DNA of 42,028 nt from an uncultured Pseudobutyrivibrio sp. GTDB taxonomy: Bacteria; Bacillota; Clostridia; Lachnospirales; Lachnospiraceae. A model generated the notes under the pieces. That model was given only the letters and a program-made list of their open reading frames with translations, was not told the origin of the DNA and did not search any database. Within the stretch, counting starts at the first letter, position 1; each line of letters opens with the position of its first letter. The position numbers and the translations under genes are program-made. Shown piece by piece: positions 13,365-15,093 of the stretch. The DNA is taken from assembly GCA_946403965.1 (NCBI GenBank), contig CAMJBT010000026.1, positions 1-42,028 on the forward strand, given 5' to 3'.

Positions 13365-13402
13365 AAAAGGAGTCTAATCCTAATTAGATTAGACTCCTTT
13401 TT
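13365..13402 (-). terminator. Terminator of mgtE
   Basis: A perfect stem of about 15 bp (AAAAGGAGTCTAATC and its complement, 7-nt loop) has T-runs on both sides. It lies 22 bp past the mgtE stop codon. Confidence 0.92.
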
Positions 13403-13423: not shown

Positions 13424-14812
13424 CTATAAACGGCCTACCAAAAGTAATCCTGCAAGACCATAGTATGTGACTACAGCAACCAAATCGTTTACTGTAGTAA
13501 TAAGTGGACCAGAGGCTACAGCAGGATCCACTTTTATCTTGTGGAAGAAAATTGGAATGATTGTACCTATGAAGCTGGAAACAATCATTGCAACAAACAG
13601 AGAAAAGCCCACGATGCCGGATACCTGGAACGCATGTGCCCACACATAGCCTTTCAACGCGTGTAAATAAATCGCTACAAAAAACAATGCCAGCAGTCCG
13701 AGAATCGCACCATTTGAACCGCCTACTCTCATTTCCTTGAGGACGAACTTGGCCTTTTCAACTCCAGAGATTTCCTCATCCATAAGAACTCGAATTGTAA
13801 CAGCCAATGATTGTGTACCAACATTTCCAGCCATATCAAGAATCAGTGACTGGAATACAACTACGATGGCAACAGAAGCCACTACTCCTTCGAAAATACC
13901 AATTACAGAGCTGGTAAAAAGTCCAAGACCAAGCAATAAAAGAAGCCATGGTATACGCTTCTTAATACTTTCTGAAAGAGATTCATGCAAATCTTCCTCA
14001 GCAGTCAAACCGGCCAACTTAGCATAGTCTTCACCCATCTCATCATCTACTGCCTCGATGATATCCTGAGAGGTGATAACGCCAATAATTTCACCTTCCT
14101 GATTAAGTACAGGAATAGAATCCTCAGCGTAATCCTTCAGCATTTCAATTGTATCTGAAATAATAGCATCTGCAGATACGCTAGGATAACTGTGACTGAT
14201 AATATCCTCCAGTGGGGTCTCTGCTCTGGCCAAAATCAAATCTCTAAGTTCAATCGCACCAGCATATTTGCTATCAGCATCCTCAACATAAATTGTGTTG
14301 ATATTATCATTATTCTGAGATTGAGAAATAAGGGCACGCATCGCTTGCTTTACAGAATAATTTTCTTTGATAACAATGAAGTTGGTAGTCATCATACTAC
14401 CGATTTCATTCTCATCGTAAGAATTAATCAATCTAACATCAGCTGATGCTTCTTTATCCATGAGTTCGATGAGCTTTTCTCTTTGCTCTTCGTCTTCAAT
14501 ATCCTCCAATGCATCTACAGCATCGTCGGCGTCCATGTTTTCAAGGACGTCAGCTGCCTGTTCAGGATTGAACTCTGCTAAGTATTCACCTACATCTTCA
14601 ATATAAGGAAAAATTTCAGAAAGTCGCTCTGCTCCTAAGATGCCAAACAAACGCTGACGATCCTCAGGTTCCAATGCCTCATAAGCCTCCGCGATATCAT
14701 TCTCATGATAATCATCCAGGGCCTCCACCATTTGCTCGGCACTAATATTAGAGCGTAGTATGTCGATAATTTCCTGTAGCTTGTTATCCTCTAATAATTC
14801 CTTTGTTTCCAT
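13424..14812 (-). CDS. mgtE: Magnesium transporter MgtE
   Basis: Mg2+-gated Mg2+ channel of the inner membrane. The 462 residues show the family order: acidic N-terminal superhelical domain at about 1-130, two CBS domains at about 135-255 (MTTNFIVIKENYSVKQA; SHSYPSVSADAIISD to ITSQDIIEAVDDE), a plug helix, then five membrane helices at about 285-462. The membrane part includes LDMAGNVGTQSLAVTIR and the GPLITTVNDLVAVVTYYGLA pore/C-terminal signature. Its own ribosome site is weak (GTGA). Expression is probably set in the 245-nt leader, which holds a leader peptide and a terminator. Confidence 0.96.
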   Translation of the reverse strand: METKELLEDNKLQEIIDILRSNISAEQMVEALDDYHENDIAEAYEALEPEDRQRLFGILGAERLSEIFPYIEDVGEYLAEFNPEQAADVLENMDADDAVDALEDIEDEEQREKLIELMDKEASADVRLINSYDENEIGSMMTTNFIVIKENYSVKQAMRALISQSQNNDNINTIYVEDADSKYAGAIELRDLILARAETPLEDIISHSYPSVSADAIISDTIEMLKDYAEDSIPVLNQEGEIIGVITSQDIIEAVDDEMGEDYAKLAGLTAEEDLHESLSESIKKRIPWLLLLLGLGLFTSSVIGIFEGVVASVAIVVVFQSLILDMAGNVGTQSLAVTIRVLMDEEISGVEKAKFVLKEMRVGGSNGAILGLLALFFVAIYLHALKGYVWAHAFQVSGIVGFSLFVAMIVSSFIGTIIPIFFHKIKVDPAVASGPLITTVNDLVAVVTYYGLAGLLLVGRL

Positions 14813-14832
14813 AGTTTCACATGAACTATAGG

Positions 14833-14866
14833 AATAAAAAAAGCGTCAACGGACAGACGATGACAC
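14833..14866 (-). terminator. Intrinsic terminator inside the mgtE leader
   Basis: On the minus strand GTGTCATCG pairs with CGTTGACGC (9 bp, one mismatch, one wobble, loop TCTGTC), followed by seven T. It lies 20-30 bp before the mgtE start and after the leader peptide, the position expected of an attenuator. It is not the end of any upstream operon, because the mgtE promoter lies 200 bp upstream of it. Confidence 0.78.
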
Positions 14867-14898
14867 TTACTCACTACGCATTTAAAAGAAACTACCCC

Positions 14899-14985
14899 TT
14901 AGATATTAAAAAGAGCAGCTTCAATGCTAAGTTCATTAAATGCCTCGTCGCAACATAATCGCCCGTGACTGTCTGATTTATCCAT
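14899..14985 (-). CDS. 28-codon putative leader peptide of mgtE
   Basis: A short frame starts with ATG 14985 after AAAGGAG at 7-nt spacing, one of the best ribosome sites in the window, and stops at TAA 14899. The peptide begins MDKSDSHGRLCCDEAFNELS and ends EAALFNI; it has five acidic residues, a Cys-Cys pair and a short hydrophobic end. It lies between the mgtE promoter and the leader terminator. The start-site segment AGAGCAGCT is exactly complementary to AGCTGCTCT in codons 22-25, so translation and RNA folding would compete. It could act in cis as a ribosome-sensing peptide. I know no named family for it. Confidence 0.65.
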   Translation of the reverse strand: MDKSDSHGRLCCDEAFNELSIEAALFNI

Positions 14986-14997
14986 AGCTGCTCTCCT
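14908..14997 (-). promoter_or_regulatory. Long-range stem enclosing the mgtE leader peptide
   Basis: AAGGAGAGCAGCT (ribosome site to start of the leader frame) pairs with AGCTGCTCTTTTT near its 3' end: 9 Watson-Crick pairs plus 4 more including 2 G-U. The 3' arm ends in a U-run. The stem would hide the leader peptide's ribosome site, or be opened by a translating ribosome. Confidence 0.55.
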
Positions 14998-15064
14998 TTC
15001 TTTAAATTGAACTATTTATTGTTTCCGTGGAAAACAATAATTTATTATTAAAAATCCATAAAAA

Positions 15065-15093
15065 ATTTAACACATAAAACCGTGTCTTGTAAA
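15065..15093 (-). promoter_or_regulatory. Promoter of the mgtE leader and mgtE
   Basis: Minus strand: -35 TTTACA, 17-bp spacer, -10 TTAAAT. The expected start near 15058 gives a leader of about 245 nt before mgtE. A small hairpin (ATTGTTT with AAACAAT) follows in the early leader. Confidence 0.6.

Follow-up and report, generated by a model that had tools for sequence, protein, structure and literature searches.

A probable leader-peptide attenuator upstream of mgtE in Pseudobutyrivibrio and other Lachnospiraceae-type genomes

The M-box (ykoK leader, RF00380) controls mgtE-type genes in Gram-positive bacteria, according to PMC12810186. How, then, might mgtE be regulated in a genome that contains no M-box? 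The question is raised by the window analysed here, a 42,028-nt stretch of DNA from an uncultured Pseudobutyrivibrio sp. (contig CAMJBT010000026.1). Its mgtE product scored 294 bits against TIGR00400 in NCBIfam (cut-off 232.75), and MgtE, MgtE_N, and CBS domains were found with Pfam. The first-pass annotation, made from the letters of the window, had seen no M-box motifs, and this was borne out: the Rfam scan of the window returned 0 matches at gathering score, M-box included, and no M-box was detected in the window's whole genome, with the control genomes of B. subtilis and L. lactis positive. Eight below-threshold Rfam matches lay near the leader, the M-box not among them. The scans of the window, of the leaders of its relatives, and of the genome ruled out the M-box or another Rfam family as the explanation.

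The region upstream of mgtE contains the following features, listed by window position in the direction of transcription.

15064-15093, minus strand: promoter-like site, TTTACA, 18 nt, TAAATT with TG (9/12 matches)
14993-14999, minus strand: Shine-Dalgarno sequence AAAGGAG of the leader ORF, invariant in 29 genus leaders
14986-14994, minus strand: 5' arm of stem P1, AGAGCAGCT, overlapping the leader ribosome site (pairing in the genus alignment, permutations)
14899-14985, minus strand: leader ORF of 28 codons plus stop, MDKSDSHGRLCCDEAFNELSIEAALFNI (open reading frame)
14956-14982, minus strand: core codons 2-10, DKSDSHGRL, family consensus D[S/N]CDSxGRS (conservation)
14959-14961, minus strand: near-invariant CGA, codon 9 (codon counts)
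14939-14949, minus strand: candidate antiterminator segment GACGAGGCATT, beginning at the 10th base past the CGA codon (pairing in the genus alignment, family profile)
14912-14920, minus strand: 3' arm of stem P1, AGCTGCTCT, codons 22-25 (pairing in the genus alignment)
14888-14894, minus strand: TAGTTTC, complementary to the mgtE start region GAAACTA (modest support)
14856-14867, minus strand: terminator 5' arm and loop AGTGTCATCGTC, the candidate antiterminator partner, its first part pairing with the terminator 3' arm
14836-14849, minus strand: terminator 3' arm TTGACGCT and seven-T run (sequence letters)
14812-14818, minus strand: GAAACTA at the mgtE start codon (pairing energy)
13424-14812, minus strand: mgtE, Mg2+ transporter of the MgtE family, 462 aa (TIGR00400; MgtE, MgtE_N, CBS)

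The 28-codon ORF with a strong ribosome site that had been claimed for this region is present, with AAAGGAG before its start. The claim that a segment of the start region is exactly complementary to codons 22-25 also held, the two strands being AGAGCAGCT (14994-14986) and AGCTGCTCT (14920-14912). An attenuator terminator with seven T had been placed 20-30 bp before mgtE; the terminator-like hairpin AGTGTCA/TTGACGCT, with a loop of 11 and then seven T (14842-14836), ends 23 nt before the mgtE start (14812). The simple terminator scan covered loops of 3-8 only, and this hairpin is absent from its list. By eye, mgtE has no Shine-Dalgarno sequence, in agreement with the poor ribosome site first attributed to it. 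The leader folded more strongly than shuffled sequences (z -4.42, 0/200). The good promoter read at 15065-15093 stood only in part: the site is present (15093-15064), and a similar TTTACA..T[AG]TGnTA block lies upstream of the leader in 19/28 genus loci, but the window held 13 promoter-like sites against 12.3 expected from shuffles, which is no excess. Two further hairpins were observed around the locus: TTATTGTTTTCCACGGAAACAATAA in the leader 5' UTR (15016-15040), which among 28 genus upstream regions occurs in the window's own genome only, and a long hairpin 3' of mgtE (13365-13401) that was terminator-like in the terminator scan.

Comparison within the genus revealed an mgtE match in 28/29 genomes, the 29th genome being 83% complete, and the leader ORF was present at all 28 loci with mgtE. 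The genome G077, from a second genus, carries a close mgtE (89% identity) and also has the leader, giving the 29 sequences referred to here as genus leaders. The core MDKSDSHGRL was unchanged in 26 of them, and the three changed cores read MDKTDSHGRL, MDKSDSHGQL, and MDKCDSHSRL. The first-pass annotation had suggested looking for codon-level conservation of the peptide. This was found: the core was kept, and differences in codons 2-10 fell mostly at third positions (GAT/GAC, TCA/TCC/TCG, CAC/CAT), which argues for a translated peptide. Judged by this codon pattern, the mini-ORF is under selection as a peptide. The acidic character ascribed to it (D/E at 2, 5, 13, 14, 18, and 22) was retained only at D2 and D5, the sole acidic residues kept in 29/29 genus leaders; positions 13 and 14 were lost in 5/29, and positions 18 and 22 varied. 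A peptide acidic as a whole was ruled out on these grounds. The genus core also contains K3, H7, and R9. Its exact form is local, since a pattern search with two mismatches allowed found it in 3/397 family genomes and 2/334 genera. The window's genome contains one copy of the genus-form leader; a second pattern match, with three mismatches, was no better than the reversed-pattern control.

To place the leader in a wider context, mgtE was surveyed in other genera, with matches in 111 of 150 genomes searched, plus 14 partly overlapping genomes. Type A comprised the closer mgtE genes (sharing 49-64% identity with the MgtE of the window, together with G077) and type B the distant ones (23-32% identity). 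A recognisable leader was found in 26/45 type-A upstream regions, a count that excludes the window, L054 (whose contig begins inside the gene), and L078 (the second gene of a tandem). The remaining 19/45 lacked a recognisable leader, and no Rfam element accounts for them. The type-A consensus was M-D-[S/N/K/G]-[C/S]-D-S-x-G-R-S with a variable tail, and residue 2 was Asp in 20/25 survey leaders other than G077. For type B, 50 regions (43 + 7) representing part of the matches listed were used and 14 leaders curated; short leaders with Arg-Ser occur here as well (MDGHSGRS, MEGRSRK, MSYKSDDPLPRSRS). The leader peptides gave no family match, three having been tested in NCBIfam and two in Pfam.

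An exact DNA-pattern scan for MD[S/N]CDSxGR[S..] across a genome contig collection (84,980 species, 257 billion bases) returned 40 loci with mgtE downstream of every one, so that the peptide-core pattern alone found only mgtE leaders. The taxon labels were mostly Lachnospiraceae or its genera, and the named taxa included Anaerobutyricum hallii, Coprococcus comes, Eubacterium ramulus, Blautia, and Roseburia; a few MAGs carried broader or other labels, one of them Saccharofermentans. The ORF stop lay 84-356 nt from mgtE in 38/40 loci. In L143, mgtE is broken into two pieces with the middle missing, and in L168 (Clostridium fessum) it lies ~205-223 nt past the ORF stop. The arrangement of leader and mgtE is not an artefact.

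Several individual loci showed additional features. Two mgtE genes (L147 and L152), each with a leader of this family, occur in the MAG Clostridiales AS22ysBPME_279. At L036:619-772, an M-box lies upstream of a related type-B leader ORF (MDSSPSRGQDYH) and mgtE, and two Mg2+ controls may be stacked there. In one relative, a TwoAYGGAY RNA (RF01731; L158:1209-1373) lies ~320 nt upstream of the leader. The type-B leaders L037-L040, L088, L097, and L100 have D and P before the Arg and are closer to a stretch of MgtL, encoded in the mgtA leader of E. coli and Salmonella, than type-A leaders are; they adjoin or overlap the mgtE start.

Codon usage within the core was more constrained than the peptide alone would specify. 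After removal of near-copies, 54/64 type-A leaders were kept; in the canonical set of 35 leaders, codon 9 was CGA in 35/35 and codon 10 was AGT in 34/35, although the scan pattern permitted other Arg and Ser codons at these two positions (it forced AGY at codon 6). In the background, CGA makes up 6.6% of Arg codons in mgtE genes and 11.1% in window ORFs, and AGT makes up 14.7% of Ser codons in mgtE genes. The 25 survey leaders had been curated by peptide, not by codon; their first Arg codon was CGA in 22/23 with an Arg in range, and Ser was encoded by AGT in 50/58 cases within codons 2-10 versus 8/48 after codon 12. In the genus leaders, codon 9 was CGA in 28/29 and codon 10 was TTA in 29/29. 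Third positions of the D, C, and G codons varied while the core residues stayed. Residue conservation together with the CGA/AGT bias indicates that constraint acts on the amino acids and also on particular codons.

The hexamer CGAAGT was in frame in 15/25 curated survey leaders. With automatic start choice, it occurred in 16/45 type-A and 20/50 type-B regions, in frame in 10 and 15, respectively, versus 1 and 2 occurrences anywhere in the region for the antisense 6-mer control. It was in frame in L048, L068, L072, L073, L084, and L107 once curated starts were used, and out of frame, apparently by chance, in L081, L043, L103, L110, and L122. The ATG-to-CGA distance among leaders with in-frame CGAAGT ranged from 3 to 16 codons.

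These codon data bear on two alternatives. In the first, the leader would encode a ribosome-arrest peptide: under a certain condition, the MDSCDSxGRS chain would halt the ribosome at the Arg-Ser bond, and the halted ribosome would cover the antiterminator segment and favour termination. This would fit the sharp drop in conservation past residue 10 and the retention of residues 2-6 and 8-10 at the amino-acid level. However, purely peptide-based arrest does not need the choice of Arg and Ser codons that is held as well, and CGA-AGT is in frame in 11/14 curated type-B leaders despite widely differing preceding residues; we consider this reading unlikely. In the second, an undescribed RNA aptamer (riboswitch) would sense Mg2+ directly and the ORF would be incidental. 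Conservation of AGT and CGA at the nucleotide level, beyond that of the amino acids, and the strong leader fold point in this direction, whereas the freely varying third positions of the D, C, and G codons, the Shine-Dalgarno sequence before the ORF, and the in-frame placement of CGAAGT across such different ATG-to-CGA distances speak for a translated element. The core itself also showed no pairing peak in type A, and no Rfam match was obtained; the aptamer is, in our judgement, highly improbable.

Analysis of base pairing supported the stem that the first-pass annotation had drawn over the leader's ribosome site. In stem P1, 259/261 genus cells were paired, compared with 28-67% when the arms were slid, and one pair was G-C in 16 sequences and A-T in 13, an exchange within the genus of the kind expected from covariation. 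Pairing between the Shine-Dalgarno region and the 3' part of the ORF beat 300/300 permutations in each set, with -18.3 versus -17.1 kcal/mol permuted in the genus (n = 21), -12.6 versus -10.1 kcal/mol in type A (n = 53), and -14.2 versus -10.4 kcal/mol in type B (n = 14). The genus-wide pairing of TAGTTTC with the mgtE start was less pronounced (-12.7 versus -11.9 permuted, 5/300 as low), and GAAACTA at the start codon may provide a second, translational layer of control. A candidate genus pairing between GTCAY (codons 6-7) and RTGAC in the terminator 3' arm was dropped, the matching C/T change being essentially that of one clade.

A terminator-like hairpin with a T-run, chosen without reference to the ORF, was found in 30/53 type-A leaders; the hairpin and T-run search detected no terminator in the other 23/53. 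ORF windows fully complementary to the terminator 5' arm lay +9 and +10 nt downstream of the Arg codon in 13 and 12 of the 30 leaders, respectively, and at other offsets in 0-5/30. In the 23 leaders with no detected terminator, the best pairing was again at +9, with other sequence before mgtE as the partner and 0/200 permutations as strong. Across leaders, the segment starts about 9-11 nt after the in-frame CGA. An earlier comparison of the ORF segment with the terminator 3' arm, based on exact identity, was coarse and overlooked G-U variants; this 5'-arm complementarity profile took its place.

In the window, segment GACGAGGCATT pairs with AGTGTC-A-TCGTC with one bulged base. Across the genus, 254/288 segment and partner cells were paired, compared with 30-55% when slid, and the overlap between segment and terminator stem is partial. 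Five genus leaders (L005, L008, L010, L012, and L013) are without segment and without partner, and no clear terminator hairpin was seen in them by eye; L027 has kept the segment and lost the partner. The type-B set showed no pairing peak at +9: its pairing was equalled by 29/200 permutations at +9 to +11 and by 3/200 at +15 to +18, and its best single offset was +35. By eye, the partner has a further possible pairing target, the ribosome site of mgtE itself, in L150 and in type-B L109. Predicted pairing of an ORF segment with the terminator 5' arm, at a ribosome-footprint distance from the candidate control codon, is thus seen in type A and the genus and is not clear in type B. This pairing, the near-invariant CGA, and the family-wide spread go beyond the first-pass annotation.

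The same geometry resembles classical attenuation, and CGA and several AGT codons stand where regulatory codons would be, as in an amino-acid/tRNA attenuator responding to Arg, Ser, or Cys starvation, or in a general translation-slowing sensor that drives mgtE by happenstance. Yet the core usually contains one CGA, and the gene downstream was mgtE at 40/40 scan loci. No codon run for an amino acid made or taken up by the operon is present in the leaders, and we know of no link between MgtE and Arg, Ser, or Cys. A sensor of this type appears very unlikely.

The leader is probably a cis-acting leader-peptide attenuator of mgtE, belonging to a family spread across Lachnospiraceae-type genomes, in which early stalling or drop-off of the ribosome would turn mgtE on. 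Ribosomes reading the whole mini-ORF would sit over the segment and hold the ribosome-site stem apart, the terminator would form, and mgtE would be off. A ribosome that halts when CGA occupies its A site, or that is lost within the first nine codons (D2, D5, then CGA), would leave the segment free to pair with the terminator 5' arm, and mgtE would be transcribed. Loss of a ribosome would let stem P1 close behind it, and a ribosome reaching the end of the ORF would open the stem. The leading edge of a CGA-halted ribosome would end just before the segment: CGA occupies nt 25-27, and its presence in the A site puts the first base of the P-site codon at nt 22 and the ribosome edge at about nt 36-38, next to the segment start at nt 37-38. 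Toeprints fall 15-16 nt away from the P-site codon (PMC11282234). From the downstream gene and the analogy with mgtL, we infer that the natural signal would be low Mg2+; the on/off direction is likewise inferred. Several results tell against this reading: the 19/45 type-A regions with no recognised leader, the 23/53 type-A leaders in which no terminator was detected, the five genus leaders devoid of both pairing partners, and the missing +9 peak in type B.

What the ribosome might sense is more tentative. CGA and AGU are both read by wobble pairs. One possible but doubtful reading is that the sensor is the decoding of the fixed CGA-AGU pair early in a ribosome-weakening peptide, with the antiterminator placed at the leading edge of the ribosome that holds CGA in its A site, rather than a nascent-chain motif or an aptamer. 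Against a halt at CGA, four consecutive CGA codons did not impede translation in B. subtilis (PMC10454642). On MgtL, ribosomes drop off at the acidic N-terminus when Mg2+ is low (PMC11282234). In mgtQ, Asp2 and Glu5 are reported to destabilise the ribosome and are needed for the Mg2+ transporter gene mgtB to be translated (PMC8092293); D2 and D5 of the mgtE leader match these two residues. D2 and D5 alone are a weak candidate for a ribosome-destabilising motif.

The first-pass annotation had likened the locus to mgtL in logic and not in sequence, and both halves of this comparison were upheld. Like mgtL, the mgtE leader is a short conserved ORF with an acidic N-terminus, shows selection on its peptide, and precedes a gene for Mg2+ uptake; as in mgtL, translation is proposed to decide transcription into the transporter gene. 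In E. coli mgtL (L169:1432-1485), the first Arg codon is also CGA, at codon 10, near the position of the mgtE-leader CGA, which may be a coincidence. The peptides are unlike each other, and the mgtE-leader core contains no Pro by eye, so that a likeness to the EPDP motif is absent. MgtL combines EPDP with a Rho-dependent terminator (PMC11282234), whereas the mgtE leader has an intrinsic terminator-like hairpin with a T-run, a different transporter family downstream, and a nearly invariant CGA codon whose spacing to the antiterminator segment is constant. The mgtQ ORF, in the Salmonella mgtC-mgtB intergenic region, resembles the mgtE leader in that its Asp2 and Glu5 free the Mg2+ transporter gene (PMC8092293), the mgtE leader having conserved D2 and D5, but it has 8 codons, is intergenic, and acts by translational control only. 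A mycobacterial M-box leader likewise contains a small conserved ORF, uORF2 (Rv1805A), in a Mg2+-related leader; that leader is under M-box and Rho control, and its peptide is mycobacteria-specific according to PMC12810186.

A literature search covering titles and the starts of abstracts, with most subscription papers and preprints outside its scope, yielded no report of a leader peptide for mgtE. The premature-terminator survey PMC2965389 has no mgtE in its main text, and PMC12288461 mentions mgtE only as a riboswitch. On present sequence comparisons, the mgtE leader would work like mgtL and mgtQ with no sequence motif visibly common to them, and appears undescribed in the literature searched.

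To our knowledge, leader-peptide control of Mg2+ transporters has been worked out mainly in enteric bacteria. If the reading proposed here is true, the leader belongs to a new family of ribosome-based Mg2+ switches before mgtE in a dominant gut family. Conservation of one control codon and one footprint distance across such a family would point to more than one origin of Mg2+ sensing by the ribosome. The leader provides exact mutable sites, which make ribosomal Mg2+ sensing directly testable, and it represents a possible route of mgtE regulation in a genome without an M-box.
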